From NCBI GenBank assembly GCA_017510335.1, contig JAFWNM010000015.1, positions 38,166-102,165 on the forward strand: a stretch of DNA of 64,000 nt, given 5' to 3'. A model generated the notes under the pieces. The model made no database searches. It was not told where the DNA came from and saw only the letters and a program-made list of their open reading frames with translations. Positions 45,630 through 63,612 of the stretch are shown here, one piece after another; position 1 is the first letter of the stretch; each line of letters begins with the position of its first letter. Source of the stretch: Paracoccaceae bacterium (GTDB lineage: Bacteria; Pseudomonadota; Alphaproteobacteria; Rhodobacterales; Rhodobacteraceae). The position numbers and the translations under genes were made by a program.

Positions 45630-45654
45630 GGAACCCAACGGGCCGCGCTGCGTT
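45630..45654 (+). promoter_or_regulatory. EcfG-type promoter for csbD
   Basis: GGAAC and CGTT are separated by exactly 16 bp and end 41 bp before the csbD start. This is the -35/-10 consensus of EcfG (general stress) sigma factors. Confidence 0.85.
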
Positions 45655-45695
45655 CTGTAGTCATGACCGAAATTCAAAACGCACAGGAGCAAGTG

Positions 45696-45893
45696 ATGAA
45701 TTGGGATATTGTCGAAGGTAAATGGAAACAGTTCACCGGGTCCGCCAAGGAAAACTGGGGCAAGCTGACCGATGACGACCTGGACCAGGCCGCTGGCAAA
45801 CGCGACAAGCTGGTGGGCAAGGTTCAGGAAAAATACGGCGTTGCCCGCGATGAAGCCGAAAAGCAGGTCGACGCCTGGTCGTCCAAGCTTTGA
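45696..45893 (+). CDS. CsbD-family stress protein
   Basis: The 65-aa hydrophilic protein matches the CsbD family: MNWDIVEGKWKQFTGSAKENWGKLTDDDLDQAAG (in parts) with the KYGVARDEAEKQVDAW end. CsbD proteins are general stress induced in many bacteria; biochemical function is unknown. The ATG at 45696 has an AGGAG site, so the upstream ATG codons are rejected. An EcfG promoter precedes it and a hairpin follows. Confidence 0.9.
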   Translation: MNWDIVEGKWKQFTGSAKENWGKLTDDDLDQAAGKRDKLVGKVQEKYGVARDEAEKQVDAWSSKL

Positions 45894-45903
45894 CAGCGGC
45901 ATA

Positions 45904-45933
45904 GGGGCCACCGTGCGACTGCGGGGTGGCCCC
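45904..45933 (+). terminator. Hairpin after csbD
   Basis: GGGGCCACC and GGTGGCCCC form a 9-bp stem with a 12-nt loop, 10 bp after the csbD stop. There is no T tract; it may be a partial terminator or stabiliser before the DUF883 gene. Confidence 0.5.
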
Positions 45934-46007
45934 GCACATTGATACATGACCAGTGAAATACCAACCGGCGAAGATGCAGTTCCGCACCGCCACAAAAGGG
46001 GGTTACT

Positions 46008-46409
46008 ATGTCACGACAACCCGTGTCCAAACTGAAACAGGACGGCAAGGAAACCGCCGAGAATGTCAAAGCGCATGCCGATGCGGCCGCCGCTGAAATT
46101 TCCGATCTGGCAGATCTGACTTATGAGGAGTTGAAAGAACAACTCGCCCTTGTCAAATCCGATCTGGCAGACCTGACAGAAGCCACAAAACAAGCGGGCT
46201 ATGCGAAAGCCCAACAAGCCCGGTCCAGTGCCCGGCGCACGGGCAGGCGCGCTGTCAAAATGGCCGAAGACGGCTATGACTATGCCACAGACCAGCTGGA
46301 CGAGGCGCTGGAAAGCGCCGAAACCTTCACCCGCGAACGCCCGGCCATGGCCATGGGTCTTGCTGCGGGCGCAGGGTTCTTGCTGGCACTGGCCTTGTCG
46401 CGCCGCTGA
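46008..46409 (+). CDS. DUF883 (ElaB/YqjD-like) membrane-anchored protein
   Basis: The 133-aa product is a charged helical protein with Ala/Glu/Lys heptads. It ends in a glycine-rich membrane anchor (AMAMGLAAGAGFLLALALSRR). This layout fits the DUF883/YqjD family, stationary-phase membrane proteins, some of which bind ribosomes. It overlaps the holin-like gene by one base (TGATG). It is likely cotranscribed with csbD from the EcfG promoter. Confidence 0.85.
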   Translation: MSRQPVSKLKQDGKETAENVKAHADAAAAEISDLADLTYEELKEQLALVKSDLADLTEATKQAGYAKAQQARSSARRTGRRAVKMAEDGYDYATDQLDEALESAETFTRERPAMAMGLAAGAGFLLALALSRR

Positions 46410-46807
46410 TGCTGCAATCCGTGCACCATATCAAGCGTCAGGCCAACTGGCATGGCGGCAATATCGCGCTGGCGCTTTGCGCTGGCGCGATGCTGGTTGT
46501 GGGGCTTGGTTTCATGGTGGCCGCAATCTGGATGATGCTGGCGCTGCAGTTTTCATCGCTGATCGCCACTTATGTGATCGGGCTGTTCTTTCTTGGCCTG
46601 TCGGGTATTTTGCTGCTGGTCAAACGCACAAGACGCCCCCCGCCCATTCCCACGCTGGACGCGCAGTTGCGCGCCAATGCCGCACGGGGGCGGGCCTATC
46701 AGCCAAAGGGGGAATTTCCTGCCTTGCTGGAAGCGTTCCTGTTCGGGGTGAACACCTATGTCCAGCTTCGCAACCGCCGCCCCCCGCCGCCCGACCGGGA
46801 CACATGA
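46409..46807 (+). CDS. YqjE/holin-X-like membrane protein
   Basis: The 132-aa product has two close membrane helices (~20-45 and ~52-72) and a Pro/Arg-rich C-terminus. It resembles phage_holin_3_6/YqjE-type proteins that sit next to DUF883 genes in many proteobacteria. It is translationally coupled to the DUF883 gene. Function unknown. Confidence 0.75.
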   Translation: MLQSVHHIKRQANWHGGNIALALCAGAMLVVGLGFMVAAIWMMLALQFSSLIATYVIGLFFLGLSGILLLVKRTRRPPPIPTLDAQLRANAARGRAYQPKGEFPALLEAFLFGVNTYVQLRNRRPPPPDRDT

Positions 46808-46829
46808 CGTCCCCGCAACACCGCACCCG

Positions 46830-46866
46830 AACCGCCGCGCCATACCCTGGCGCGGCGGTTTTGTTT
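46830..46866 (+). terminator. Intrinsic terminator of the csbD operon
   Basis: AACCGCCGCGCC and GGCGCGGCGGTT form a 12-bp stem with a 7-nt loop, followed by TTGTTTTG. It lies 22 bp after the holin-like gene. Confidence 0.8.
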
Positions 46867-47036
46867 TGTGGCCCAGCCCGTTTTGTGGCCCTGCCCCGCT
46901 ATGCCCCTGCCCCTGACAGGCCAGTGCCCGCCAGCCAGACGGCGCGCACGCGCACACCACCCTGATACCCTGTGGCGTTCATGCGCAATCACGCTGCAGC
47001 ATTGACCTGCGCGCTTATGGCCCAACGCATGTTGCC

Positions 47037-48212
47037 CTAGTCAGGTGGCGCAGGGCGGGGGTGTGTGTCATCCGACAACAGGTTTGCAACCTTGGCCGCC
47101 CCCGGGAATTGTTCCAGAATAACCCGCATCATCACCAGCATGGGCACTGCGATCAACATTCCCATGAACGACCACATCCACGCCCAGAACGCCACTGACA
47201 TGAACACAATCACCCGGTTCATGGCCAGCCGCCGCGCCAGCAGATGCGGGGTGATCAACTGCCCCTCCAATGTGGTCAGCGTGAAATAGGCCAGCGTGAC
47301 CATCAGCACGCTTTGCAGGTCGTCAAACCACAAGATCGCAATCATGCTGGTCAGCACAACCCCCGCCACCGCACCCAGATAGGGAATGAAGTTCAACGTG
47401 AAGGCCAGCGCGGCAAACAGCAACGGCACCGGCATGCCCAACCCCCACATCGCCGCCCCCACACAAACGCCAAGCCCCGCATTGATCAACGTCACTGTGC
47501 CCAGATACCCGCCCAGATCGCGTTCAATCTTGTAAAGCGTATTGATGGCCACCCGCTTGTCGGAAAACGTGCTGACGCTTTGCACGATCTTCAGGTAAAT
47601 CAGTTCGCTGGACGACAACAGGAAAAACAGCAAGATCAGCATGAACACCACCTGCCCCACTTTCGCAGGCGCTTCGGCCAGATAGGTCAACGCGCCGCTT
47701 GCGGTGCTCAGCATCACATCCGCACTGCTGCTGTCCTCAGCCGAGGCAAGCGCGCGGTTCGTGCTCTGGCGCAGGTCGGGGACAAAGCCCCGGTCACTTT
47801 CGCCCAACCCGACCAGCACGTTCATCACGGCCGCTTGCAACGATTGCAGGCGCGTGCTGATGTCGCGCAAAATATCGGGCAGGTTATCGGCAAGCTGCAT
47901 GACCGGGCCACTTAGCAGCACAAAAACCGCCGCTATACCCGCCATCAGACCCAGAACCAGCGCCGCAGCAACCGGCGTGGCAGGCAGGCCCACCGCCAGC
48001 AACCGCCGCTGCAGGGGCATGAACACAAAAAACAGCAACACTGCCGTGAACACCGGCAACAGCAGACTGCCCGCATAATGCACCGCCCCCAGCAACAGAA
48101 TACAGAAAATGCCCGTCACCATAACAGATATGCGCTGCGTGCTTGCCGCTGCACTGGCAGGGGAAATGGCCCGAACAGGGCCTTTGCCCGGCCGGTTGGG
48201 TGACAGGGGCAT
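47037..48212 (-). CDS. AI-2E family transporter (first of two)
   Basis: The 391-aa product has about eight membrane helices and matches the AI-2E/UPF0118 family, with a large extracytoplasmic loop (~120-220) and the late pattern FIPYLGAVAGVVLTS. Members export autoinducer-2 or act in ion or pH tolerance; which applies here is open. The ATG at 48212 is the likely start. An EcfG promoter lies 54 bp upstream on the minus strand. Confidence 0.88.
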   Translation of the reverse strand: MPLSPNRPGKGPVRAISPASAAASTQRISVMVTGIFCILLLGAVHYAGSLLLPVFTAVLLFFVFMPLQRRLLAVGLPATPVAAALVLGLMAGIAAVFVLLSGPVMQLADNLPDILRDISTRLQSLQAAVMNVLVGLGESDRGFVPDLRQSTNRALASAEDSSSADVMLSTASGALTYLAEAPAKVGQVVFMLILLFFLLSSSELIYLKIVQSVSTFSDKRVAINTLYKIERDLGGYLGTVTLINAGLGVCVGAAMWGLGMPVPLLFAALAFTLNFIPYLGAVAGVVLTSMIAILWFDDLQSVLMVTLAYFTLTTLEGQLITPHLLARRLAMNRVIVFMSVAFWAWMWSFMGMLIAVPMLVMMRVILEQFPGAAKVANLLSDDTHPRPAPPD

Positions 48213-48266
48213 GGTGGGCGGCCTTTCGGTTGGGGGACGTCGCACAAATGCGGCACTCCATAACGT

Positions 48267-48291
48267 AACGCAGACCACAAGATGCGGTTCC
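48267..48291 (-). promoter_or_regulatory. EcfG-type promoter for the first AI-2E transporter
   Basis: On the minus strand GGAAC (48291-48287) and CGTT (48270-48267) are 16 bp apart. Confidence 0.8.
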
Positions 48292-48321
48292 CCGAACCAC
48301 CCCCATCTTGCACCCGGGAAC

Positions 48322-48347
48322 GGAACCTAACCCCCCGTGCATGCGTT
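48322..48347 (+). promoter_or_regulatory. EcfG-type promoter for the 93-aa membrane protein
   Basis: GGAAC and CGTT are 17 bp apart on the plus strand, 127 bp before the ATG at 48475. It is divergent from the AI-2E promoter, only 30 bp away. Confidence 0.75.
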
Positions 48348-48474
48348 TACACAACGATACCATGAAGCGGCAGCGCAATGACACCTTTTCAGGACCGCAC
48401 GCGCCAGCCGCAGCCGGACCCAAGACATGGCGCCATCGCGCCTGCGGGTCCGCAGGCCCAGAAAGGACCAAACC

Positions 48475-48756
48475 ATGAGTGCACCTGACACGAATCTGAA
48501 CAAACAGGCCCGTCGCCATCGCGGCCCATTGGTGGGGATGGCAATCGCGGTCATTCTTGCTGTGGCGTTTTTGGGGTGGTTGCTGGTCAGGACACTGGTT
48601 GTCGAACCCGAACCGCCCGAACAACCCGCACAGGCGCCCGCAGGGCAAACCCAGTCCGATACCGGCATTCCCGCAGAAGGGACAATAACCGGCCCCTCCA
48701 ACCAGGCGGAAGAAACACCCCAGATCATTGAGGAACCTGCCCCCGCCGCAGATTGA
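48475..48756 (+). CDS. Small single-pass membrane protein
   Basis: The 93-aa product has a short basic N-terminus, one membrane helix (~22-44) and an acidic, Pro/Glu/Gln-rich outer tail. I recognise no family. AAAGGA lies before the ATG at 48475. It has an EcfG-type promoter and a two-way terminator shared with the second AI-2E gene. Confidence 0.7.
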   Translation: MSAPDTNLNKQARRHRGPLVGMAIAVILAVAFLGWLLVRTLVVEPEPPEQPAQAPAGQTQSDTGIPAEGTITGPSNQAEETPQIIEEPAPAAD

Positions 48757-48916: not shown

Positions 48917-48932
48917 CGAGTATGCGCCCGCA

Positions 48933-50127: not shown

Positions 50128-50152
50128 GGAACCAACCGGCGTCAGGCGCGTT
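50128..50152 (+). promoter_or_regulatory. EcfG-type promoter with no protein gene downstream
   Basis: GGAAC (50128-50132) and CGTT (50149-50152) are 16 bp apart on the plus strand, between the second AI-2E gene and a minus-strand oxidase gene. The expected start of transcription is near 50160. Confidence 0.75.
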
Positions 50153-50159
50153 TCATGTA

Positions 50160-50260
50160 TGTCCCTGTTGGGGCGTCAGGCTTTTGTCCCTGACTGATGT
50201 CCTCCAGTCCTGACTTGCCCATCTTGCGGCCATTGGCCTGCAGGATGGGCTTTTTCTTTG
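50160..50260 (+). ncRNA. Candidate EcfG-dependent small RNA
   Basis: No protein gene fits here on the plus strand, yet an exact EcfG promoter is followed by a strong intrinsic terminator. The terminator has stem GCCCATC / GATGGGC (50217-50250), an inner TGC-GGCC / GGCC-GCA stem and then TTTTTCTTT. The ~100-nt transcript would also hold a GTCAGG / CCTGAC hairpin (50175-50194). A second CCTGAC at 50209-50214 could compete for the same arm. Between them lies an exposed TGTCCTCCAGTCC stretch, complementary to Shine-Dalgarno-like AGGA sequences. I infer a trans-acting regulatory RNA made under general stress. The transcript boundaries are predicted. Confidence 0.6.
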
Positions 50261-50675: not shown

Positions 50676-51879
50676 GACGCACCCGCCGCCTGAACCACAA
50701 ACACCACCGCTGTGACAAGGGCACTCACGGCCGTGAAGCCCTGCCAGCTGTTCCATGCCCGCGCAGCGCCTTCGCGCGCAGGCCCCGCCGCGGTCAGCGG
50801 CGCAATTTCGCCGCGCCGGACCTGATCGGCAGTGAATGCGGCCATCGCGCCCGCAACCAGCACATGCAGCGCGACATAGCCCAGCATGGCCGCGCGCAAC
50901 GCATCGCGGGCATGGGCGCGGGGTCATCCAGTTGGGTGGCCAGCCCGATCAACGCGCCCAGCGCCACAAGGTTGCACAGCACCCCCGCCAGCGCGACCCA
51001 CCGCGCGCCCCGCCCCGCCGCTGCGGCGCGCGCGCATCCCGCCCCCAGGGCCAGCGCGCCCACACTTCCGCCCAGCACCAGCGCCACAGTCAGGTTTTCC
51101 ACCAGCGCGGGCGGTGGCGCTGGCCCTTGGGTGACAACCGACAAAAACGCCACCCCGAACAGCAATGATGCAAACAGCGCCCCATCCGCCACCAAAAGCG
51201 CATGAAGCCCGCTTTGCGCCAGTGTCGGGCGCGGCGTGCAATGCTGCACAGGCACAACCACAGCAGGGGCAATTTCAACAGGGCGCATATCGCCGGACGG
51301 GGCCATGACACGCACCCACATCCAGACCAGCACCGCCACCGGCAGCAGCGCCGCCGCCGCCAGCGCATACAGGCTGGCCAGCATCAGCAGCACAAACACC
51401 GCGATACATGCCGCCAGCGCCAGCGGCAGGCCCGTATTGCCCGGCAAAACCGCCACATGGCAAGGACGGGCATCACCGGGTGTGGTGACCAGCACTTCGC
51501 GCCGCCCGCGCGGGGCGCCCGCCAGCACCCCTTCGCCGCGCGCCAGCGCATGGATCACATCGCGCGCACGCATTCCCAGATGGCGCGCCACCGGCAGAGA
51601 GGCAAAATTGTAATTGGGCGCAGGCAACGGCATGGCCCAATCCAGCGTCGGCGCGCGCCACGGGTCCCGGCGCGCGCGCTGGCCAAGCGTGGCTTGCAAA
51701 ATCAGGTCCAGCGCGAAAATGGCAAAACCGATGGTCAGCACAAACCCGAACAGCGATGATGTCAGGTTCAGCCACTCCCATTCAGGGTTATCAGGATAGG
51801 CATCAATCCGGCGCGGCATGCCCAGCAAGCCTGTCAGATGCATGATGAAAAACGTGCCGTGAAACCCCGGCAGGATCAC
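50672..51879 (-). pseudogene. Continuation of the oxidase subunit I+III gene, separated by two frameshifts
   Basis: After the stop of the upstream reading frame the protein continues in another frame with ILPGFHGTFFIMHLTGLLG and MPRRIDAYPDNPEWEWLNL, the usual COX1 ending. It then runs into a long hydrophobic subunit III-like region. Adding one base near 51884 restores GEAAFWVILPG. A second break lies near 50910: adding one base there joins ATQLDDPAPM to ARDALRAAMLGYVALHVLV, and the frame then runs to the stop at 50672. Intact I+III fusions are about 830 aa. The damage may be real decay or sequencing error; both sites are single-base losses near short G/C runs. Confidence 0.75.
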
Positions 51880-53219
51880 CCAGAGGCAGCCTCTCCCACG
51901 CCCTTGACGCGCGCCTTGCCGGTAATCAGCGGCATCCAGTAGGTCACAGCCGCCATCATCGGGAACACGAACCCGCCAATCAGCACATAATGCAGATGCG
52001 CTGTCACAAAGGCGGTGTCATGGGCCTGCCAGTTGAAGGGCACAATCGCCAGCATCACCCCCGTCAACCCGCCCATCACGAAGGTCAGGAAAAACCCCAG
52101 GATATGCAGCATGGGCAAATGCAGTTCCGGCCTGCCCTTCCAGATGGTGCCGATCCAGGCAAACACCTGCACCGCCGTGGGCACGGCCACCAGCACCGAC
52201 GCGGCCGAAAAAAACGCCAGCGCCAGATGCGGAATGCCCACAGTGAACATATGATGCACCCACAACCCGAAGGACAAAAACACCAGCCCCAGAATGGCCG
52301 CCACAATCGCGCCATAGCCCAGAATGGGCGTGCGGCACATCACCGGAATGATGGTCGACATGGCCCCCGCCGCTGGCAGGAAAATAATATAGACCTCAGG
52401 GTGCCCGAACAGCCAGAACAGGTGCTGCCACAAAAGCGGGTCGCCCCCGCGCAGCGGGTCGAAGAACGGCCAGCCGAAGGCGCGCTCCACCTCCAGCAAC
52501 ACCGACCCCGCAATCAGCGGCGGAAAGCCCACCAGCATCATCGCGCTTGTGCCCAGCATATACCATGCAAACAGCGGCATTTCAGTCAGCTTCATGCCCG
52601 GCGCGCGCTGGCGCAGAATGGTGACGGTAATTTCCACCGCCGCCGCAACCGCCGAGATTTCCACAAACGTCACGCCCAGCAACCACACATCCGCATTGAT
52701 GCCGGGGCTGTAGGTGGCCCCCGACAGCGGCGTATACATGAACCAGCCATCGCGCGGGGCCACGCCGAACAAAAGCGCTGTCAGCATGATCAGCCCGCCA
52801 AACAAGTAGCACCAATACCCCAGCGCCGTCAGGCGCGGGAATGCCATGTCCCGCGTGCCCAGCAATTTGGGCAACAGCCATATCCCCAACCCTTCCAGCA
52901 TGGGAATGGCAAACAGGAACATCATGATACTGCCATGCATGGTGAAGATCTGGTTATACAGGTCGGTATCCAGAAACGCGCCCTGGCGGGTGGCCAGCTG
53001 CGCGCGGATCAGCATCGACAAAATCCCGCCAATGGCGAAGAACACAAACGCCGTCGCCATGAAGCGCAGGCCCAATGTCGTGTGGCTTACCGCTGTGACC
53101 TGCCCCCAGACCCCGCGATCATTGGCCCAGACCCGCGCCAGTTCGCGGTGCAGCCGCAGTGCGCGCCGGGGGGCGTTGGGCGGCAGGTCCTGCGCGTCAT
53201 GCTGCACTGTGTCGTTCAT
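51876..53219 (-). CDS. Cytochrome c oxidase subunit I (5' part; frameshifted I+III fusion)
   Basis: This 447-aa frame holds eleven or so helices of a second haem-copper oxidase subunit I, distinct from ctaD. It has FTMHGSIMMFLF (low-spin heme His), [18 protein letters not shown] (CuB His and channel Glu), WVHHMFTVG (CuB His pair) and VTAHLHYVLIGG (heme His). It stops early at GVGEAASG where a one-base loss breaks the frame; the rest follows in the 50672-51879 region. The order ctaG, CopD/HemJ-like, subunit II, subunit I+III resembles the coxMNOP-type oxidase loci of alphaproteobacteria. Its start overlaps the subunit II stop by 4 bp. Confidence 0.85.
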   Translation of the reverse strand: MNDTVQHDAQDLPPNAPRRALRLHRELARVWANDRGVWGQVTAVSHTTLGLRFMATAFVFFAIGGILSMLIRAQLATRQGAFLDTDLYNQIFTMHGSIMMFLFAIPMLEGLGIWLLPKLLGTRDMAFPRLTALGYWCYLFGGLIMLTALLFGVAPRDGWFMYTPLSGATYSPGINADVWLLGVTFVEISAVAAAVEITVTILRQRAPGMKLTEMPLFAWYMLGTSAMMLVGFPPLIAGSVLLEVERAFGWPFFDPLRGGDPLLWQHLFWLFGHPEVYIIFLPAAGAMSTIIPVMCRTPILGYGAIVAAILGLVFLSFGLWVHHMFTVGIPHLALAFFSAASVLVAVPTAVQVFAWIGTIWKGRPELHLPMLHILGFFLTFVMGGLTGVMLAIVPFNWQAHDTAFVTAHLHYVLIGGFVFPMMAAVTYWMPLITGKARVKGVGEAASG

Positions 53220-53890: not shown

Positions 53891-54393
53891 AGCGGGTCAA
53901 ACCTTGCAGGGATGGCATGCCCGCGCGGTTCGCGCAGCATCTCGGGCAACAGCGCGATCAACTCCTCCAGCGCGGGCTTGGCCAGCACCAGCCACAACAC
54001 CACCCCCATCAACGGCACCAATGCCCCCAGTGCAAACGCGGCCGGCGGCAAACGATAGGCGTTGCGGTGCTCTCCGGCCTGGCCGATGATATGGCCCAGC
54101 CATGCATGCACCAACACCATGCCACTGACCGCCACCAGCTTGACCAGCAACCACGCATCCAGCACCTCCAGCGCGAAAATCAGCACAGTGCCCGCCGTGA
54201 CAGCAATTACCGCTGCAGGTGTCAGAACAAGGCGATAAGCGTGATGTGTCACCCAGCGAAATTCCGTAAATCCCGTCTGATTGCGCGACGCATAATCAAG
54301 CCGGTGCAACTGGATGACAACCGGCAGCAGGATCAACCCCGCGCACCAGACCGAAAGCGCCGCGATATGAAGCGCCTTGAGCAGGGCAATCAT
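53887..54393 (-). CDS. CopD/HemJ-like four-helix membrane protein
   Basis: The 168-aa product has four to five helices. It starts MIALLKALHIAALSVWCAGL, the histidine-helix pattern of CopD and HemJ-type proteins, with further His in THHAYRLVLTP and MVLVHAWLGHIIG. It may bind heme or copper for oxidase assembly; which is open. The ATG at 54393 overlaps ctaG. Confidence 0.7.
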   Translation of the reverse strand: MIALLKALHIAALSVWCAGLILLPVVIQLHRLDYASRNQTGFTEFRWVTHHAYRLVLTPAAVIAVTAGTVLIFALEVLDAWLLVKLVAVSGMVLVHAWLGHIIGQAGEHRNAYRLPPAAFALGALVPLMGVVLWLVLAKPALEELIALLPEMLREPRGHAIPARFDPL

Positions 54394-55139
54394 GCGCGCC
54401 GCCCCCCCTGCCCCAATGTCTGTTCTGGTGCCTGCCCCAAAGCTTGCCATGTCATAATGGCCGCCAGCACCGCCAGCGGCACCATGCCGGGCACCCACAT
54501 GATCAGGCCCGCCAGTTGCTGGTCTTGCAGCGCGCTGACGCCAAAGCGCGGCGCATGGGCCAGATGTTCCACATAAAAGGCGCGCGGCGCGAAAGTCAGC
54601 AGCGCGCCCAGCATCCCCATCTGCCCCACCAGCGACACCAGCCCAACAGCGCCCGCCACCCTGCCCGCACCTTGCCCCAGAACAGTGGACCAGAACGCCC
54701 AACCCGGCACAATCAACGCAAGCTGCAGCGCCCAATAGACGGCCGCATTGTCCCAGGCGGCACTATAGACAACCGGCAAGTGCCACAGCCACAACGCCGC
54801 TGACACGGCCAGGACGGCCAGCACCTGCGGGCTGCGCCGCAGCGGAAAAGCCAGCGCAAGCGCGGGCGCCAGAACGGCAATCACCACCAGATGATGCAGC
54901 GTGCGCGCCGAAAACAATGCCACGCTCATGGCGCATAGCGGGGACACGAACGCCAGCACCGCCGCAAACATCGCCACCCCGAAGGCACGACGGCGCGGCG
55001 CTGGTTGCGCGCGCAACTGCCACATTCCGCCCAGCGCCAACACGCCAAGGCAGCCAATCAGAACAGGGTCAAGGTTCCATGCCGTGACCCATGCATGCGG
55101 GTCGGGGGCGGGTCCACAATAGGGCAAATCAGGGTCCAT
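54390..55139 (-). CDS. ctaG: Cytochrome c oxidase assembly factor, CtaG (caa3) family
   Basis: The 249-aa product has six to seven helices and matches the Bacillus-type caa3_CtaG family, with PYCGPAPDPHAW near the start, SARTLHHLVVIAVLAPALAL, and YSAAWDNAAVYWALQLALIVPG. It is linked to insertion of the CuB or heme centre. It is first gene of the second oxidase operon. An exact EcfG promoter lies 31 bp before the ATG at 55139. Confidence 0.85.
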   Translation of the reverse strand: MDPDLPYCGPAPDPHAWVTAWNLDPVLIGCLGVLALGGMWQLRAQPAPRRRAFGVAMFAAVLAFVSPLCAMSVALFSARTLHHLVVIAVLAPALALAFPLRRSPQVLAVLAVSAALWLWHLPVVYSAAWDNAAVYWALQLALIVPGWAFWSTVLGQGAGRVAGAVGLVSLVGQMGMLGALLTFAPRAFYVEHLAHAPRFGVSALQDQQLAGLIMWVPGMVPLAVLAAIMTWQALGQAPEQTLGQGGRRA

Positions 55140-55170
55140 CACATTCAGGCATCACGCGGTGTTGTGACTC

Positions 55171-55195
55171 AACGCGCGCCATGCCAGCCGGTTCC
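55171..55195 (-). promoter_or_regulatory. EcfG-type promoter for the ctaG-cox operon
   Basis: On the minus strand GGAAC (55195-55191) and CGTT (55174-55171) are 16 bp apart, 31 bp before ctaG. It places the second oxidase under general stress control. Confidence 0.8.
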
Positions 55196-55387: not shown

Positions 55388-55465
55388 TCAGAACACACCA
55401 AACAGATAAAGCAAGATGATCAATGGCAACGGAATGCCAATTATCCACAGCAACAAACCACGCAT
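55388..55465 (-). CDS. 25-aa single-helix membrane peptide
   Basis: The frame encodes MRGLLLWIIGIPLPLIILLY and then LFGVF before TGA, a single hydrophobic helix with one Arg at the start. AAAGGA lies 8 nt before the ATG at 55465. An exact EcfG promoter lies 48 bp upstream. Promoter, ribosome site and clean frame together support a real gene of a size usually missed. A role in membrane stress or as a subunit of a membrane complex is speculation. Confidence 0.65.
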   Translation of the reverse strand: MRGLLLWIIGIPLPLIILLYLFGVF

Positions 55466-55513: not shown

Positions 55514-55538
55514 AACGGGCAACGCCGCAAAAAGTTCC
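55514..55538 (-). promoter_or_regulatory. EcfG-type promoter for the 25-aa peptide
   Basis: On the minus strand GGAAC (55538-55534) and CGTT (55517-55514) are 16 bp apart. Confidence 0.8.
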
Positions 55539-55787: not shown

Positions 55788-56774
55788 TTACCCTTGGTAT
55801 TCAGGCACGCTTTCCAGTTGTTCCTGAGTCATCGGAACGGAAACACGCACGTCGCCATCTTGGTCGTTCCACATGATGTCGACATCGGCAAGTTCAAGGG
55901 CGATGGTGTGGCTTGCAAGTCCAAGAAACCCGCCCACGTCCATGATGACATGGGTCATCGTGCCATCATCGCCAATCACCACATCATCCACAGTTGCGAT
56001 GTTGTCACCTTCGGCGCCATAGACATTCGCACCCAGCAGGTTTTCGGCAGTGCGGTCCTGCTCACCCATTTCGGTGTAGCCGTCCATGGTTGCCTGATCC
56101 GCACCCGGTGTCGCTGGCTGGGTCGACATTCCGGTGCCATCTTGCGCCATCGTGCCGTCTTGCGTCATGCTATCATCGCCGTCCAGCATGCCCATGTCGT
56201 GACCGCCTGCGGCCTGGTCATAGCCTTGCGCCTCGAAGCCGATATCCAGTTGGTCATCTTCCCATTCGGGCAAGGCTTCCAGCTGCTCCTGGCTCATGGA
56301 TGCCACGACGAAGAAATCGGACAGGTCTTCGGGTGCCGTATCATCGGCCACGAAATACAGCTCGCTGATGTCAACCATCACTGTGCGCGCCCCAAGGCCT
56401 AGGAAACCGCCAACATCAATCAAGATGCCGCGCACTTCGCCGTCTTGGGTCATGACAATGTCTTCGATATTGCCGACATCATTCCAGGCATCGCGCTCGG
56501 ATGTGAAGGTGTCGCTGCTTTCCCAGCGCATGCTGGTGCGGTCCCAGGCGCTGCGGTCGTCGGACGCGCGGTCTTGTTGCAGCGTGCGGGTTTGTTCATT
56601 GTCCAGCGTATACAGGTTTTTGCCCGTAAAATCCGATGACAGGAACGCCGGAACAAATTGGCCTTGCGTCCCTTGTGCAGCAGTATCGCCACCCATGGTC
56701 GTGTCGGCCGTTTGCGCATATGCCCCCATCGAGGTAACTGCGACAATTGCGGTAGTCAGCATAAGGTTTTTCAT
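55788..56774 (-). CDS. Exported protein with two PRC-barrel domains
   Basis: The 328-aa product has a signal peptide (~1-21, ending GAYAQ) and two PRC-barrel-like domains (~80-155 and ~240-315). The repeated pattern DVGGFLGLGARTVMVDISEL / DVGGFLGLASHTIALELADV shows an internal duplication, with the same MTQEQLE...LP ending. A Met/Asp/Gly/Thr-rich linker lies between. Such periplasmic PRC proteins are often stress induced; partner unknown. A possible weak EcfG-like site upstream has poor spacing. Confidence 0.85.
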   Translation of the reverse strand: MKNLMLTTAIVAVTSMGAYAQTADTTMGGDTAAQGTQGQFVPAFLSSDFTGKNLYTLDNEQTRTLQQDRASDDRSAWDRTSMRWESSDTFTSERDAWNDVGNIEDIVMTQDGEVRGILIDVGGFLGLGARTVMVDISELYFVADDTAPEDLSDFFVVASMSQEQLEALPEWEDDQLDIGFEAQGYDQAAGGHDMGMLDGDDSMTQDGTMAQDGTGMSTQPATPGADQATMDGYTEMGEQDRTAENLLGANVYGAEGDNIATVDDVVIGDDGTMTHVIMDVGGFLGLASHTIALELADVDIMWNDQDGDVRVSVPMTQEQLESVPEYQG

Positions 56775-56977
56775 AGTCTTTCTCTCCTACGTTGTCTCTG
56801 GCCTTCTCGAAGGCTCTGCAAACACAACAACGGGGGGCGCATCAAAGTTCCAAAATAATCCTAAAAAGTTTATTTTTTTGAATGACTTAACGTAAACCAC
56901 GGGCAATAACACCAGCCCGTTGCCGGACTGGTGCCAAAAGCCGCACCCTTCTGAAATTCCGCGCGGGCAAACCCGCG

Positions 56978-57205
56978 TCAGCGCCGTTCGCGAGAGCGTT
57001 CCCGCGCAGGTTTGTCGCCCACGTCATCAAACGCGCCCGACGGGGCCTGATCCACATGTTCAATACGGCGCATGCCCAGATCGGGGGTCTTGTCATTGGC
57101 CGCAGGGTGGGTCGGGTCCACGCTGGCGCCTTCTTTTTTCAGCTTGCGCGCTTCTTTTGCGAATTTTTCTTGCGCAGTGGTACTGGTGTTTTTCGGTGCA
57201 GTCAT
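56978..57205 (-). CDS. 75-aa hydrophilic protein of unknown function
   Basis: The product is highly charged (Lys/Arg/Asp/Glu), with a helical N-terminal half (AQEKFAKEARKLKKEGASVD) and a Pro/Asp-rich end. No family is recognised. AAAGGACG precedes the ATG at 57205 and an exact EcfG promoter lies 42 bp upstream. Confidence 0.75.
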   Translation of the reverse strand: MTAPKNTSTTAQEKFAKEARKLKKEGASVDPTHPAANDKTPDLGMRRIEHVDQAPSGAFDDVGDKPARERSRERR

Positions 57206-57247: not shown

Positions 57248-57272
57248 AACGCGGCACCCCCAAAAGCGTTCC
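57248..57272 (-). promoter_or_regulatory. EcfG-type promoter for the 75-aa gene
   Basis: On the minus strand GGAAC (57272-57268) and CGTT (57251-57248) are 16 bp apart. Confidence 0.8.
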
Positions 57273-57399: not shown

Positions 57400-57582
57400 T
57401 CAACCCTTCTTCGGGCCGGCAATGAACCATATGATCAGCCCGACAACCGGGAACAACAAAACCAGCAATATCCAAAGAACCTTTTGTCCCTGGCTGGAAG
57501 GCGAGCCCAGAATGGACACCGCCGCCCAGACAACTAGCGCCAGATGCAAAATACCCAGAAACCCCGTGAAATTCGTGTTCAT
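57400..57582 (-). CDS. PLD nuclease N-terminal-like membrane protein
   Basis: The 60-aa product has two membrane helices (FTGFLGILHLALVVWAAVSIL and KVLWILLVLLFPVVGLIIWF) and a KKG end. It matches the PLDc_N domain, found alone in many small proteins. Function unknown. A GGAAC-N16-GGTT element (one mismatch to EcfG consensus) lies 37 bp upstream. Confidence 0.8.
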   Translation of the reverse strand: MNTNFTGFLGILHLALVVWAAVSILGSPSSQGQKVLWILLVLLFPVVGLIIWFIAGPKKG

Positions 57583-57619: not shown

Positions 57620-57644
57620 AACCCCCTGCCGCCCGGAAGGTTCC
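57620..57644 (-). promoter_or_regulatory. EcfG-like promoter variant for the PLDc_N gene
   Basis: GGAAC (57644-57640) and GGTT (57623-57620) are 16 bp apart on the minus strand; the -10 differs in one base from CGTT. Confidence 0.5.
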
Positions 57645-57752: not shown

Positions 57753-59153
57753 CTAAACCAGTTCGAAAATTTCGTAATCGATATGGCGATCACGCACACC
57801 AAGGCGCTGCAGATCAGCCCGCAAGGACGCGATCATAGGGCCGGGACCACACAGCAAATGCGGCCAGTCGCGCGTATCGGCGGCAAGATGGCGCGTCAGA
57901 ATGTCGAAATCGACCTGTCCGCTTTCGCCGTCCCACCCTTCGGGCGGGTCATCCAGCACATGCACCAGCGTCATGTTCAGACTTTTGCGCAAGCGCTCCA
58001 GCTCCTGCCGGAAGGCAATCATGTCCAAGGACGGGTTGGCATAGATCACGATGACAGGGCGCGTGTCACCACGCGCATCCAGCGCATGCAAATTGGCAAT
58101 GATGGGCGTAATCCCGACCCCGCCCGCGACCATCACAAACCCTTTGGCGCGCGCCATCCGGTCCACCGAAAACGCCCCATACGGCCCATCCACATAGGCC
58201 CGCGCCCCGATTCTGGTTTGCGCCAGGTCCTTGCTATGGTCGCCCAGCGCCTTGATGGCAAAGGACAGGTTCGGGCCATGTTCGGGCGCTGTGGAAATGG
58301 TGAACGGGTGCTGGATCATCCCATAGGGCGAATGATCGACCGTCAGCCATGCGAACTGCCCGGGCTTCCAGCGCTTCAGCGCGCGCCCCTCGGGGGCAAG
58401 TTCCAGACGGCGCACCCCGCCGCCTTCGTCATGGTTGCCGACAACCCGCCACGGGTTGCGCGTCTGGACCCAGGGACGGATGACACGCGTGAACACCAAC
58501 AATCCCAGCCACCCCAGCGTGACCCCCAGCCACAAGACGCGCTTTTGCGGCGTATCGGTCAGGTTGCCCACCCCCAGAACATGCGCAATCGCGGCCACAA
58601 ACCCCGAAATCGCCAGCCCCAGATGCAGCCTGCGCCACCACTCATAGCGCAGGCCCAACGGACGGCGCCATTGCGACGTGACCACAAGCGCGGCAAAGCA
58701 CAAAGCCGCCACACGCCCCGCCGTCAGTTCCCAACGTGCCTGAAACGGGTTCAACGCGCCCAATGCAGGTTGATGAAACACATATAGCACAGCGAAATGC
58801 GCGGCCATCAGCACAAGCGCGCCCCAACTCAGGTACCGGTGCGCCAGATAGACGATATCGGCCCCGAACGGGTGCGTGACCCAGCGCAGGCGGCCTGTCA
58901 GCGCGAATTGCAACGTCACCATCGCCAGCGCCCCAAAGCCCAGCCCCATGCTGAAATCCCACATCAGCCCGCCGGACGGCACCGCCTCGGCGGTGAAAAC
59001 AAGCACCGCGAAGGGCAGCCCCAGCGCCAGAACCCCCAGCGCCAGCACGGCCACCGCATGCAACAGGACAACCCCGCGCCGGTCATGACGGGGCTGGAAC
59101 TGGCGGGCTTTTTGGGTGCGCGCCGTAGCGGATGGGAAGGAAGGACCATTCAT
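57753..59153 (-). CDS. Ferric-reductase-like transmembrane oxidoreductase
   Basis: The 466-aa product has an N-terminal ferric reductase-like membrane domain (~25-220; paired His in AHRYLSWGALVLMAAHFAVLYVFH, in parts, and RRLHLGLAISGFVAAIAHVLG). A C-terminal FAD/NAD(P) domain follows, with HPFTIST, DGPYGAFSV, GGVGITPIIANLHAL and LLCGPGPMI. It likely moves electrons from cytoplasmic NAD(P)H across the membrane; substrate unknown. An EcfG -10 lies only 8 bp before the ATG at 59153, so the mRNA would be almost leaderless, or translation starts further in. Confidence 0.88.
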   Translation of the reverse strand: MNGPSFPSATARTQKARQFQPRHDRRGVVLLHAVAVLALGVLALGLPFAVLVFTAEAVPSGGLMWDFSMGLGFGALAMVTLQFALTGRLRWVTHPFGADIVYLAHRYLSWGALVLMAAHFAVLYVFHQPALGALNPFQARWELTAGRVAALCFAALVVTSQWRRPLGLRYEWWRRLHLGLAISGFVAAIAHVLGVGNLTDTPQKRVLWLGVTLGWLGLLVFTRVIRPWVQTRNPWRVVGNHDEGGGVRRLELAPEGRALKRWKPGQFAWLTVDHSPYGMIQHPFTISTAPEHGPNLSFAIKALGDHSKDLAQTRIGARAYVDGPYGAFSVDRMARAKGFVMVAGGVGITPIIANLHALDARGDTRPVIVIYANPSLDMIAFRQELERLRKSLNMTLVHVLDDPPEGWDGESGQVDFDILTRHLAADTRDWPHLLCGPGPMIASLRADLQRLGVRDRHIDYEIFELV

Positions 59154-59161: not shown

Positions 59162-59186
59162 AACGTGGCACCCCCGCGCCGGTTCC
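59162..59186 (-). promoter_or_regulatory. EcfG-type promoter for the ferric-reductase-like gene
   Basis: On the minus strand GGAAC (59186-59182) and CGTT (59165-59162) are 16 bp apart, immediately before the coding region. Confidence 0.75.
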
Positions 59187-59850: not shown

Positions 59851-59875
59851 AACCCGCAACTTGCGTGCCAGTTCC
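59851..59875 (-). promoter_or_regulatory. EcfG-like promoter variant for the DUF2231 gene
   Basis: GGAAC (59875-59871) and GGTT (59854-59851) are 16 bp apart on the minus strand, 50 bp before the ATG at 59800. Confidence 0.5.
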
Positions 59876-59892: not shown

Positions 59893-61608
59893 TCAGGCCA
59901 GCGCGGGGGCTTGGGGCACCTGTTCGGCCACCCGCAAACACACCTGCCACCCGTCGCGCCCGTCGCGCTGATGGGGGCCTATTTCAATATCGCCATGGAT
60001 TTGCAGCGCAAAGGCCGTCATCAATTCGCGCCCCAGCCCGTCGCCTGGCACATCATCGGGCGCGCCGGACACCGAATTCCACACACGCAACTGGGCAAAC
60101 CCGTCCTTGCGCGACAGGCTGATATCCAGCAGATTTTCCCCGCCATGCGCGCTGGAGGCGTATTTCACCGCATTGGTCAGCGCTTCGGCAAACAGCAACG
60201 ATGCCGGGATGATCTTGTCATGGGCCATATTCACGCCCTCGAACTGGGTCGTGACCTTCAGATCCGTGGTGCCGGAACGTGCCAGCGACAATGTTTCTTG
60301 CAAAATACTGTCAAAGAAACTGGCGGCATAGCGTTCTGAAATCCGGTCTTGTTCATATAGCGTGCGATGGATTGTCGCCAGTGACCGCACCCGCGCCTGA
60401 ACCCCTTGCAAAATCAGCCGCGCATCAGGGTCGCGCAAACGGCGCATCTGCAAATTCAGGATCGAGGCGATAAGCTGCAGGTTGTTTTTCACACGGTGAT
60501 GCACTTCTTTCAGCAAAATGGTCTTTTCTGCCAGCGCGTCCTCACGCTCGCGCTCGTCACGGCGGATCAGAAGCGCCATTTTCGAAAAGGTGGAATCAAT
60601 CTCGCGCAATTCGGCGGGTGCTTCATCGGGCAGGCGCTGGAATTCCTCGCGGTTGCCAAGCGCGAAGCGGCTCAACTGCGAATTCAACCGCTTCAGGTGG
60701 CGCACGACCATGTAATCCACGGCGAACATGACAACCGCCAAGGATGCAAACCACATAAGCACCGGGAACCCAAGCCGCCAGTAACTCTGGGCGGCTGCGA
60801 AGGGCAACTGATCGCTCGACCAGCTTCCCAGCGCATAAAGCTGGCCGGGGATCACCTCGGCAATGGTGAACATGCGCTTGTCACCGCTTTCGCTGGGACC
60901 GCGGAAAACCCCGTTGCGGGCCTGCAAAAACTCCTCCAGGGCGGTGCCTTCGGGCAGCCGGTCCACTGCATCGGCGGTATCTTCATTGGTCAGGGTATCG
61001 CCTGCGGGGTTGACCAGGTAGGTCATGCGCAGACCGCTGCTTTCGTCAGGTTCCGTGGAAATCAGGCTGAAGGTCTGGCGCGATATCGAAATGCTGATAT
61101 AGCCCATGAAATCGCCATCGGAATAGACCGGCCTGTTGGCCAGCACCACTGGCCGCCCCGTTATGGCGCCTGACGGCTGAAAACTGAAAAAACTGCGCGG
61201 GTCCGCCATAGTGGCCTGCAACCGTTCGGACGCACCAAAATCCACCGGCTCGCCCTGTGACAGGCAACGCATCACGCCGTCGCGCGGAATAAACCCCGCA
61301 AAGGAAAACAGCCCCGTCGCATCAATGAATTCGCGCAAGAACCCCGAACAGGCGGCGGAATCGTCCAGCCGTTCCAGCACCAGCGGCGTCAGGCGGTGCG
61401 CGGACAACATGGCGCTTTCCAGCAAACCCCGCTGCCCTGCCACCGCATCCAGCGTGCGCGACACCAGCATGGCATCATTGGCGCGCGCCTGTTCGCGCAG
61501 CGCCTGATATTCCGAATAGATGGAAATCGCCCCCAAAGGGGCAAGCGCCAGCGTCATCAGAATCGCCAGTCGTGTCGCCAATCGGTCATTGATTTCGAAC
61601 ACTGCCAC
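59893..61608 (-). CDS. Membrane sensor histidine kinase, HWE/HisKA_2 type
   Basis: The product (571 aa from a GTG at 61608) has a first membrane helix (~10-35), a periplasmic sensing region (~36-275) with a dCache-like pattern (MTYLVNPAGDTLTNEDTADA), and a second helix (~285-305). A HAMP-like linker and the HisKA_2 phosphoacceptor motif LLKEVHHRVKNNLQLIASIL follow, then an HATPase region (ASLLFAEALTNAVKYASSAHGG). This class donates phosphate to PhyR in the general stress response. AAGG lies 6 nt before the GTG; a TTG at 61638 overlapping ecfG is the alternative. Confidence 0.88.
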   Translation of the reverse strand: MAVFEINDRLATRLAILMTLALAPLGAISIYSEYQALREQARANDAMLVSRTLDAVAGQRGLLESAMLSAHRLTPLVLERLDDSAACSGFLREFIDATGLFSFAGFIPRDGVMRCLSQGEPVDFGASERLQATMADPRSFFSFQPSGAITGRPVVLANRPVYSDGDFMGYISISISRQTFSLISTEPDESSGLRMTYLVNPAGDTLTNEDTADAVDRLPEGTALEEFLQARNGVFRGPSESGDKRMFTIAEVIPGQLYALGSWSSDQLPFAAAQSYWRLGFPVLMWFASLAVVMFAVDYMVVRHLKRLNSQLSRFALGNREEFQRLPDEAPAELREIDSTFSKMALLIRRDEREREDALAEKTILLKEVHHRVKNNLQLIASILNLQMRRLRDPDARLILQGVQARVRSLATIHRTLYEQDRISERYAASFFDSILQETLSLARSGTTDLKVTTQFEGVNMAHDKIIPASLLFAEALTNAVKYASSAHGGENLLDISLSRKDGFAQLRVWNSVSGAPDDVPGDGLGRELMTAFALQIHGDIEIGPHQRDGRDGWQVCLRVAEQVPQAPALA

Positions 61609-61634
61609 TGCCTGCCTTAAACCATATTCAGTTA

Positions 61635-62210
61635 TCAAAACCCGTTCGGCGCACCAGCCATCACCATGGCGACAGATTTATCTGTGGACTCAGGGTTCTC
61701 GCCTTTTTCAAGATACAGCATTTCTGCCAATGCCTTGCGCGCACGGTTGGCGCGGCTTTTTATTGTGCCGGGCGCGCAATTGCAGGTTTCTGCGGCTTCC
61801 TCGATGGAAAACCCCATCGCCCCCACCAGAATCAGCGCCTCGCGCTGTTCAATGGGCAACAATTTCATCGCGGCAGTCAGTTCTTGCAACGCAAGACGGC
61901 CATCATGGTCGGGCTTGGAGGCCATCCGCGCGGCAAAGAGTCCTTCGCCATCGGACACTTCGCGCGACTGTTTGCGGCGCTTGGACAGATAGGTGTTGCG
62001 CAAAATGGTGAACAACCACGCCCGCAGATTGGTCCCTGCATTATACTGGCCGAATTTGGTCCAGGCTTTCAGGACGGTTTCCTGCACCAGATCATCAGCG
62101 GCCGACATGTCCCCTGACAGACCACGCGCAAAGGCGCGCAGGGCGGGCAGATGGGTCACAATTTCGTCGCGCGGGTCGGGGGTTGTGTCAGGCGGTAATG
62201 TGCCAGTCAT
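61635..62210 (-). CDS. ecfG: General stress sigma factor EcfG (RpoE2-type)
   Basis: This ECF sigma factor directs RNA polymerase to general stress promoters. The 191-aa product has region 2 (MSAADDLVQETVLKAWTKFGQYNAGTNLRAWLFTIL, in parts) and region 4 (LLPIEQREALILVGAMGFSIEEAAETCNCAPGTIKSRANRAR, in parts). It overlaps nepR by 4 bp, which keeps sigma and anti-sigma made together. Its own promoter sequence lies upstream of nepR, so it should be autoregulated. Confidence 0.93.
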   Translation of the reverse strand: MTGTLPPDTTPDPRDEIVTHLPALRAFARGLSGDMSAADDLVQETVLKAWTKFGQYNAGTNLRAWLFTILRNTYLSKRRKQSREVSDGEGLFAARMASKPDHDGRLALQELTAAMKLLPIEQREALILVGAMGFSIEEAAETCNCAPGTIKSRANRARKALAEMLYLEKGENPESTDKSVAMVMAGAPNGF

Positions 62211-62395
62211 TGCTTCCCCGCCTTCTTCTGTGCATCCTGCTGTCGCAGCGCTTCCAGAAGATCGGTCAGGGATTTGGGCAATTCCTCGGACGTGGTATCG
62301 GTATAGAGCCGCTTGAGGTTTTCATCAATCTGTCTGGAAACAGCCGGCGCGATGTCCTTCTTGCTTCCGTTACGTTTCCCGCTCATTATCGACAT
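62207..62395 (-). CDS. nepR: Anti-sigma factor NepR
   Basis: NepR holds EcfG inactive until phosphorylated PhyR titrates it. The 62-aa product has the conserved helices RQIDENLKRLYTDTTSEELP and KSLTDLLEALRQQD. The ATG at 62395 follows AAAGG; ATG at 62386 is possible. It starts the nepR-ecfG operon. Confidence 0.92.
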   Translation of the reverse strand: MSIMSGKRNGSKKDIAPAVSRQIDENLKRLYTDTTSEELPKSLTDLLEALRQQDAQKKAGKQ

Positions 62396-62474
62396 ACAGC
62401 CTTTTGCTCCACAAATCTCAATCTGGCATTTTACGTTGCAGCGCGCAAGCATGGTATAAGATGCAACAACCTTC

Positions 62475-62506
62475 GGAACCGAACGCCGCGCGCTGCGTTT
62501 GGTTCC
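62475..62506. promoter_or_regulatory. Palindromic two-way EcfG promoter between nepR and phyR
   Basis: Plus strand: GGAAC (62475-62479), 16 bp, CGTT (62496-62499). Minus strand: GGAAC (62506-62502), 16 bp, CGTT (62485-62482). The 32-bp unit is nearly a perfect palindrome (GGAACCGAACG...CGTTTGGTTCC), so one site serves both phyR and nepR-ecfG. Confidence 0.85.
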
Positions 62507-62593
62507 CGAAGAATATGTGTTTTTTACAATCTGCCCGGGCACGGGCCGCAAGATCGGAAAGTTCAGATGATGCCGGAAGTCCAAGGAGAGAAG

Positions 62594-63388
62594 ATGTCGA
62601 TGTCGATGCGTATTGCAAAAGAACTGCCCTATCTGCGCCGGTATGCGCGCGCGCTGACCGGCAGCCAGCACACAGGCGACAGATATGCAGCCGCCACGCT
62701 GGAAGCGATCCTTGAAGACCGGTCCTTGCTGGACAGCGACATGTCCCCGAAACTGGGGCTGTTCCGGGCGTTCCACACTGTGTGGCAAACCACCGGCGCC
62801 CCTGTCAGCGAAGACCCTGCCACAGGCACCGAAGCGCGCGCGCAATCGCTGCTGGCAGCGCTGACAACCAACACCCGCGAAGCGCTGCTGCTGCGTTCAC
62901 TGGAAGAATTCAGCTATGACGACATTGCGCAAATCGTCCAGATCACCGAATCCGAAGCCCGCGAACTGGTGACTATCGCCTATGGGGAAATGTCGCGGTC
63001 AGTGCAGGGGCGCATCCAGATCATCGAAGATGAACCGCTGATCGCGCTGGATATCAAAAGCATTGTCACCGAAATGGGCCATGAGGTGACAGGCATCGCG
63101 CGCACCCACAAGGAAGCTGTGGAACTGGGCAATCGCACGCGCCCGGACCTTATTCTGGCCGATATCCACCTTGCCGACGATTCCTCGGGGGTGGAAGCAG
63201 TGGCCGAATTGCTGCGCGACAATGCCGATATTCCGGTCATTTTCATCACCGCCTATCCCGAACGCCTGCTGACCGGCGAAAAACCCGAACCCGCCTTCCT
63301 GATCACCAAACCCTTCGAGGAAGAACAGGTCCGCTCTGCAGTGTCGCAAGCCATGTTCTTTGCATCCACGACGACACTCAACGCCTGA
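62594..63388 (+). CDS. phyR: General stress response regulator PhyR
   Basis: PhyR couples stress kinases to EcfG: its N-terminal sigma-like domain, once released by phosphorylation, binds NepR. The 264-aa product has the EcfG-mimic domain (~1-130: ELPYLRRYARALTGSQHTGD and SLEEFSYDDIAQIVQITESEARELV) and a receiver domain (~140-255) with the phospho-Asp in LILADIHLADDSSG and the later FITAYPERLL and FLITKPFEE. AAGGAGAG precedes the ATG at 62594. Confidence 0.95.
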   Translation: MSMSMRIAKELPYLRRYARALTGSQHTGDRYAAATLEAILEDRSLLDSDMSPKLGLFRAFHTVWQTTGAPVSEDPATGTEARAQSLLAALTTNTREALLLRSLEEFSYDDIAQIVQITESEARELVTIAYGEMSRSVQGRIQIIEDEPLIALDIKSIVTEMGHEVTGIARTHKEAVELGNRTRPDLILADIHLADDSSGVEAVAELLRDNADIPVIFITAYPERLLTGEKPEPAFLITKPFEEEQVRSAVSQAMFFASTTTLNA

Positions 63389-63408
63389 TTGGCCTGAACC
63401 GTATCGAA

Positions 63409-63436
63409 AAGCCGGCAATTTTGCCGGCTTTTTTCA
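63409..63436 (+). terminator. Intrinsic terminator of phyR
   Basis: AAGCCGGC / GCCGGCTT form an 8-bp stem with loop AATTTT, followed by TTTT. It lies 20 bp after the stop codon. Confidence 0.88.
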
Positions 63437-63587
63437 TTTTATAAGGGTATTTTCAGAATAGTTTTTTCAGCCCCCGCCCTTCAGCAGAAAAATAAATTCG
63501 ATACCGCTGAAAATAACCCAAAGAAAACCAAGGTTTTTCAAAAAAACCAGCGCGCATCTTTTGGCATGTCACAAAACACTGATACCG

Positions 63588-63612
63588 GGAACCAATCCCG
63601 CCTTCATCCGTT
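63588..63612 (+). promoter_or_regulatory. EcfG-type promoter for the DUF1328 gene
   Basis: GGAAC (63588-63592) and CGTT (63609-63612) are 16 bp apart, 50 bp before the ATG at 63663. The 100 bp further upstream are A/T-rich and hold no gene. Confidence 0.85.

Follow-up and report, generated by a model that had tools for sequence, protein, structure and literature searches.

In a 64,000-nucleotide stretch from a Paracoccaceae bacterium (assembly GCA_017510335.1, contig JAFWNM010000015.1, here contig C9, positions 38166-102165; hereafter the window), we found that exact matches to the promoter consensus of EcfG, the general stress sigma factor, crowd into a block of about 18 kb (45630-63612), where they surround phyR, nepR-ecfG, and the gene of a PhyK-like kinase. 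These sites are very probably EcfG promoters, and the region is, with the same high probability, a conserved general-stress regulon block of the genus Roseinatronobacter. The predicted dependence of the promoters on EcfG follows from their consensus, position, and conservation. The system as such is known; its layout is unusually clustered, and it includes a new candidate small RNA (sRNA) and a new candidate micropeptide.

Scanning for exact matches to GGAAC-N16/17-CGTT returned 11 sites in the window, all of them inside the block, ten with a 16-bp spacer and one (at 48322) with a 17-bp spacer, the same set that a first-pass annotation made from the sequence alone had listed. Dinucleotide shuffles of the window (n = 100) contained 0.92 matches per 64 kb on average and 4 at most. 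The annotation had identified the motif as the alphaproteobacterial EcfG consensus, which agrees with the GGAAC-N16-CGTT given in the available part of PMC7083833, and it had named an equal density throughout the genome as a finding that would speak against it. No such evenness was found: the source genome (3,614,859 bases, 43 contigs) has 62 exact sites, 11 in the block and 51 outside; the rate in the rest of the genome predicts 0.26 sites per 18 kb versus 11 observed (Poisson P about 6e-15), which corresponds to an approximately 43-fold enrichment. The next densest 18 kb, on contig C8 (L075-L077, G000:C8:121523-139301), has 4 sites, one of them before a PRC-barrel-like gene. All 11 block sites are intergenic according to a codon-model gene caller made for this analysis, and they occupy promoter positions of the genes to which they had been assigned, whose names (csbD, AI-2E, ctaG, ferric reductase, phyR, nepR, ecfG, and DUF1328) are supported by Pfam. 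The earlier list of exact sites was thus complete, but it lacked two near-consensus sites in promoter position, each with one mismatch, before a PLDc_N gene (57620-57644) and a PRC-barrel gene (56826-56851).

Most of these promoters are conserved in relatives. We compared 14 window promoters (11 exact and three near-consensus) with the genomes G231, G226, and G199, accepting as a site GGAAC plus [CGT]GTT at the aligned place; 13 of 14 are conserved in G231, 13 of 14 in G226, and 11 of the 12 that could be aligned in G199. The only one that fails in all three is a GGTT candidate before the DUF2231 gene (59851-59875, reverse strand), which was rejected. Changes in boxes and spacers were counted in pairs of equal spacer length, that is, for 8 of 13 promoters in G231 and 9 of 11 in G199. 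The nine box positions changed in 1 of 72 cases versus 49 of 128 spacer positions in G231, and in 2 of 81 versus 67 of 145 in G199. Since the spacers have diverged, the identity of the boxes is not merely a product of recent descent.

The left end of the block carries csbD, DUF883-like, and holin-like genes (forward), an AI-2E transporter gene (reverse), a 93-amino acid (aa) membrane protein gene (forward), a gene for a second AI-2E protein (reverse), and the candidate sRNA gene (forward). In the middle are a small-protein gene, cox1 as two open reading frames (ORFs), cox2, a CopD-like gene (named by eye), ctaG, and a 25-aa peptide ORF (all reverse), and on the right are genes for a PRC-barrel protein, a 75-aa protein, PLDc_N, a ferric-reductase-like protein, DUF2231, the PhyK-like kinase, EcfG, and NepR (all reverse), followed by phyR and DUF1328 (forward). 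The window ends where the contig ends; in G231, DUF1328 is followed by a DUF2383 gene and then by tRNA-Arg and the suf operon (the name suf was assigned by eye). The main features are given below; "kept" refers to the alignments with G231, G226, and G199, and "exact" to the full motif.

45630..45654, forward: EcfG-type promoter of csbD; exact, at the aligned place in all three relatives
45696-45893, forward: csbD (Pfam); likely start chosen by eye, ORF opens at 45663
48267..48291, reverse: EcfG-type promoter of an AI-2E family transporter; exact, kept in G231 and G226, not alignable in G199
47037-48278, reverse: AI-2E transporter ORF (Pfam); translation probably begins further in, since the promoter site covers the first possible start
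48322..48347, forward: EcfG-type promoter (N17) of the 93-aa membrane protein; exact, kept in all three
48475-48756, forward: 93-aa membrane protein; no Pfam family found
50128..50152, forward: EcfG-type promoter of the sRNA; exact, CGTT in G231 and G226, GGTT in G199
50156..50257, forward: candidate sRNA gene, about 100 nt; the stem-loop at 50217-50250 is its intrinsic terminator
55171..55195, reverse: EcfG-type promoter of ctaG; exact, kept in all three
54390-55142, reverse: ctaG (Pfam); first gene of a series (CopD-like, cox2, cox1, small protein) that extends to 50376
55514..55538, reverse: EcfG-type promoter of the 25-aa hydrophobic peptide ORF; exact, ORF and upstream site in six loci and also in G231 and on the G226 contig
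55388-55465, reverse: 25-aa peptide ORF; recurs in relatives with its promoter
56826..56851, reverse: near-consensus site GGAAC-N17-TGTT upstream of the PRC-barrel gene; all three relatives likewise have a TGTT site
55788-56774, reverse: PRC-barrel gene (Pfam)
57248..57272, reverse: EcfG-type promoter of the 75-aa protein; exact, kept in G231 and G226, not alignable in G199
56978-57205, reverse: 75-aa protein; no Pfam family found
57620..57644, reverse: near-consensus site GGAAC-N16-GGTT before the PLDc_N gene; full consensus CGTT in all three
57400-57582, reverse: PLDc_N membrane protein (Pfam)
59162..59186, reverse: EcfG-type promoter of the ferric-reductase-like gene; exact, kept in all three
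57753-59153, reverse: ferric-reductase-like gene (Pfam)
59893..61638, reverse: PhyK-like sensor histidine kinase (HisKA_2/HWE and Cache, Pfam)
61635..62210, reverse: ecfG, general stress sigma factor (Pfam sigma-70 regions 2 and 4)
62207..62395, reverse: nepR, anti-sigma factor (Pfam NepR, 38.6 bits, cut-off 25.7); start chosen by eye
62475..62499, forward: EcfG-type promoter of phyR; exact, kept in all three
62482..62506, reverse: EcfG-type promoter of nepR-ecfG, overlapping that of phyR; exact, kept in all three
62594..63388, forward: phyR, anti-anti-sigma response regulator (NCBIfam PhyR model, 354.5 bits, cut-off 240; Pfam sigma-like and receiver domains)
63588..63612, forward: EcfG-type promoter of DUF1328; exact, kept in all three
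63663-63836, forward: DUF1328 (Pfam)

The cox1 frame (50794-53219, reverse) is split into two overlapping ORFs, which may reflect either a change of frame or an error of assembly. Seven loci of relatives were checked in which no locus end cuts the gene, and each has a single frame of 843-945 codons.

The switch genes are arranged divergently, nepR-ecfG against phyR, with EcfG-type promoters on both units. The sigma factor is identified as EcfG (ECF15) mainly from its context, as its best NCBIfam model scores 260.4 bits, just short of the cut-off of 270. The kinase matches the NCBIfam PhyK model with an E-value of 3e-60, but its 204 bits fall far under the cut-off of 750, and the NCBIfam scan of NepR gave no match. 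Among the named PhyR proteins that we found, the one from Roseinatronobacter sp. HJB301 is nearest (93% identity), and other close ones come from Roseinatronobacter, Natronohydrobacter, and metagenome assemblies; we take these and their kin to be Rhodobacteraceae of salt and soda lakes. The phyR gene of one genus member, G203 (L057:16415-18140), has an insert of approximately 0.86 kb that looks transposase-like by eye, and 11 exact EcfG-type sites are still found over the 35 kb around it.

PhyR (E below 1e-100) occurs in 20 of 38 genomes of the genus, and among the 25 with a completeness of 90% or more and a contamination of no more than 5% it is present in 13 and absent from 12. We searched these 12 near-complete genomes (of the 18 that lack PhyR) and two PhyR-bearing controls with a joined query of six block genes (csbD, PLDc_N, DUF1328, DUF2231, ctaG, and ecfG). 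Both controls carry all six. In the 12 PhyR-lacking genomes, ecfG has no match above 47% identity (other extracytoplasmic function (ECF) factors), DUF1328 has no clear match, and csbD has a single weak partial match (G159). Most of the tested block genes therefore appear to co-occur with PhyR in the genus. The proposal that the sigma factor lies beside a large block of its targets is supported by site density, by box conservation, by the proximity of the genes to phyR across the genus, and by the absence of most tested genes where PhyR is missing. A second, sparser set of block-gene relatives with three exact EcfG-type sites is found on another contig of G231 (L172-L174, G231:C3:405000-464999) and comprises an ecfG paralog (45%), ctaG, DUF2231, cox genes, csbD, DUF883, and a holin-like gene.

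The 51 sites outside the block include 25 inside genes and 26 in intergenic regions, 15 of the latter before a called gene (within 400 bp upstream of it and not inside another gene). The PhyR-lacking genome G200 has 30 exact sites, with 26 inside genes, four intergenic, and none before a gene; the intergenic and before-gene shares differ with Fisher P of about 8e-4 and 6e-4, respectively. This intergenic excess indicates that a dispersed regulon exists too. Its sites precede genes that by eye resemble those of entericidin, OmpA-like, PRC-barrel, phospholipase-D-like, universal-stress, and ectoine-hydroxylase proteins. The site before the ectoine-hydroxylase-like gene (L106:3441-3465, G000:C43:80140-80164) is exact and lies 69 bp upstream; such a target, if true, would link the stress response to osmoprotection. 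With the intergenic rate of G200 as background, we estimate that about 20 of the outside sites are real and that the block holds about one third of the real exact sites, a figure obtained with a single control species and a simple gene-calling method.

Several observations weigh against reading the region as the regulon block of EcfG. About half of the outside sites are intergenic, and the block is thus predicted to be only part of the regulon. The boxes in the relatives were located by the pattern itself, which makes the conservation test partly circular, and changes were counted in same-length pairs only. Another ECF sigma factor may possibly cross-recognize the sites. Among the 12 PhyR-lacking genomes, one (G207) has both DUF2231 and ctaG, and nine have PLDc_N (five at 57% identity or more, four at 40-46%); this frequent persistence of PLDc_N without PhyR speaks against a strict all-or-none block. 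A more radical alternative is an ordinary locus, in which only phyR, nepR-ecfG, and a few neighbors have EcfG promoters and the remaining sites are matches that arose by chance in GC-rich DNA. Such matches do occur in GC-rich genomes, 25 of the 51 outside sites lie within genes, and many relatives have only one to four sites near phyR. Yet the excess over the expected 0.26 sites, the intergenic position of 11 of 11, and the boxes kept in three relatives make this explanation extremely improbable.

The regulon block is not tied to one place in the chromosome. In G231, the same block holds 12 of 76 genome-wide sites in 17.5 kb and is located between a peptide ABC (ATP-binding cassette) operon and tRNA-Arg/suf. 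The suf operon of G234, G233, and G203 lies apart from phyR and has no block beside it; block genes near phyR are contiguous in G234 and in two parts in G233 and G203. The peptide ABC operon occurs without the block in G232, G233, and G234, as does the suf locus in the PhyR-lacking G200, G201, G159, and G232. Block genes thus keep near phyR at different chromosomal addresses in the genus. These varying addresses, the patchy distribution over 20 of 38 genomes, and the right end of the G231 block, which faces the 3' end of tRNA-Arg, would fit a mobile genomic island that an integrative element brought to a place beside tRNA-Arg in this clade. The 20 window proteins scanned include no member of an integrase or transposase family (the flanks were outside this protein-family scan), no border repeat was found at the block ends in G231, and the G+C content of the block is ordinary, which renders an island of this kind very unlikely. 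The tRNA-Arg(CCG) is near sufS in all eight suf loci checked, and in G231 (L054:12387-12463) the block starts at its 3' side; integration at this border was rejected, as there is no repeat and the tRNA is equally near sufS in 7 of 7 suf loci without a block. Of the "stress island" that the first-pass annotation had suggested, the regulon block stands, but it is not the whole regulon, and marks of a mobile island were not seen in these scans. Transfer by other means and loss with rearrangement are both possible origins of the patchy presence.

The site at 50128 had been placed before a gene-free stretch. No protein gene is called there, as stated, but the stretch holds an sRNA-like gene, and 50156-50257 is a previously unrecognized candidate sRNA gene with a predicted EcfG-type promoter. 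The conserved match begins 4 nt past the EcfG site, the predicted fold has -47.6 kcal/mol (z -5.2), and a scan of 43000-64000 against Rfam at E up to 1 gave four weak matches, none above the gathering score and none at the sRNA. BLAST found the sRNA in the block of G226, G231, and G199 (two short hits, 21 and 23 bases long, in G204 and G230 were ignored). A covariance model of these three copies and that of the window detected a copy in G203 (E 2.5e-8), a second copy in the source genome that begins 4 nt after an exact EcfG site (C23:122706-122802, E 5e-4), and weak second copies in G231 and G226 (19-21 bits). Over the 38 genus genomes at E up to 1, this model matched 17, strongly only the source genome, G199, G226, G231, and G203; the PhyR-lacking genomes have weak matches only, which are probably due to chance. 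A second model, built from eight copies, identified in a separately extracted stretch of G233 a ninth copy that had not been used in model building (E 2e-11); an exact EcfG site directly precedes it. Each of the nine copies examined in the genus has an EcfG-like site in front of it, exact in seven cases, GGTT in G199, and TGTT in G203. Over 199 genomes of the family (E up to 0.1, stricter filters), the eight-copy model matched 11 genomes including the source genome; the 11 matches in the ten others (E 7e-5 to 0.05) had an EcfG-like site just upstream in none of the 11 cases and were taken as chance. At this search sensitivity the sRNA appears to be restricted to the genus.

When the eight copies are aligned, standard pairs make up 93.8% of the pair cells versus 35-45% in slid versions, and 8 of 22 pairs show double changes. 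None of 500 shuffled controls reached the observed paired cells, doubly changed cells, or covariation score, but 32 had at least as many doubly changed pairs as observed, and 406 at least as many further pair types. We therefore regard the covariation as supportive, not overwhelming; the structure was derived from the alignment used in the test. The 5' end is conserved, C-rich, and UGUCCCUG-like, with variable predicted pairing, and the conserved loop is pyrimidine-rich (UUUUGUCC in block copies, shorter in second copies). The RNA might instead be a mere terminator or leader by-product of the neighboring genes, as its location between the AI-2E gene and the cox run and the intrinsic terminator in its 3' half could suggest. 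We consider this unlikely, given that the match starts so close to the EcfG site, that the 5' stem also pairs with changes on both sides, and that the second copy at an unrelated locus and the copies in G203 and G233 likewise follow EcfG-like sites.

The peptide ORF (24-25 aa) recurs with many synonymous changes in the window, HJB301, Natronohydrobacter thiooxidans, G233, G203, and G205. An EcfG-like site (GGTT in N. thiooxidans) is located 64-87 nt upstream of its start in all six loci, and the ORF also follows the aligned site in G231 and on the G226 contig. Scans of the 25-aa peptide against Pfam and NCBIfam gave no family. The conserved ORF is thus a candidate micropeptide among the predicted EcfG targets.

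Site clustering around phyR is common, not universal, in Rhodobacteraceae. We compared 26 phyR loci of at least 12 kb out of 40, leaving out shorter, non-Rhodobacteraceae, and partial hits, and found 113 exact sites versus 8.3 expected from permuted motifs, 83 of them located elsewhere than between phyR and nepR. Taken alone, the 15 loci from more distantly related members of the family have 65 versus 4.9 expected. Counts per locus range from 0 (Kangsaoukella) to 13 (Aliiroseovarius sp. S1339); the latter has 13 of its 71 genome-wide sites in 18.5 kb, where some of the gene types are the same but are ordered differently. Within about 21 kb, the loci of Aliiroseovarius sp. S1339 (L027) and Roseobacter sp. 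H9 (L029) carry 13 and 10 sites, respectively, and their gene content is partly different.

Rhodobacter sphaeroides belongs to the same bacterial family. Its PhyR, the nearest experimental one, is described as specialized, mainly for membrane stress, and its locus likewise has the sigma factor and kinase genes on the strand opposite to phyR; in contrast to the block, a Crp-Fnr gene follows phyR, and the available sections of that paper describe no target block (PMC5830050). As far as the accessible parts of the sources go, the consensus, locus layout, and switch seen here are those of the alphaproteobacterial general stress response (GSR; PMC7083833, PMC8103513, PMC6599016). Sphingopyxis granuli shares GGAAC-N16-CGTT, nepR-ecfG divergent from phyR, EcfG-type promoters on both units, and a nearby kinase (PMC7083833; review PMC8103513), and the same excerpts list csbD as a target and TGTT -10 boxes as used (PMC7083833). 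Its regulon of 79 transcriptional units differs in that the targets named there have widely spaced locus tags (PMC7083833), whereas 11 of 62 exact sites lie within 18 kb here. GsrN of Caulobacter, compared with our sRNA by its features, is also about 100 nt long with an EcfG/SigT promoter and an intrinsic terminator, and its predicted homologues usually lie near the GSR locus (PMC5869019), much as the block copy of the sRNA is 12 kb from phyR, with the second copy on another contig. GsrN acts, according to the available text, on katG and has an exposed C-rich 5' loop (PMC5869019); the sRNA has the conserved 5' end and the pyrimidine-rich loop given above. The word "Rhodobacter" is absent from the accessible text of PMC5869019, and the open-licence literature searched mentions, in its available parts, neither a block of EcfG targets nor an sRNA driven by EcfG for Rhodobacteraceae.

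If the block works as the known system does, stress sensed by the kinase would lead to phosphorylation of PhyR, which would take NepR off EcfG, and EcfG-RNA polymerase would then fire the block together with the dispersed promoter set. Autoregulation of phyR and nepR-ecfG would amplify the response, and the sRNA may add a post-transcriptional arm working like GsrN. The products (CsbD, ElaB/DUF883-like, DUF1328, PRC-barrel, the PLDc_N and AI-2E membrane proteins, ctaG/cox, and the ferric-reductase-like protein) suggest envelope and redox protection. More tentatively, and with more doubt than confidence, the region could be a self-contained regulon cassette, in which kinase, switch, sigma factor, protein targets, micropeptide, and sRNA, including a lineage-specific EcfG-driven sRNA pair, would be kept together by selection. 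Gain, movement, and loss would then affect most of the cassette at once, and a species would possess either the response or next to nothing of it.

The EcfG literature, in the parts available, lists targets gene by gene across the genome; here switch and targets cluster. As the presence of the block varies within one genus, species with and without the response are available, and two questions become testable: what benefit cells of salt and soda lakes draw from the response, and whether a clustered regulon is more readily kept or moved. For Rhodobacteraceae, the sRNA gives a compact and specific candidate through which the general stress response might act after transcription.

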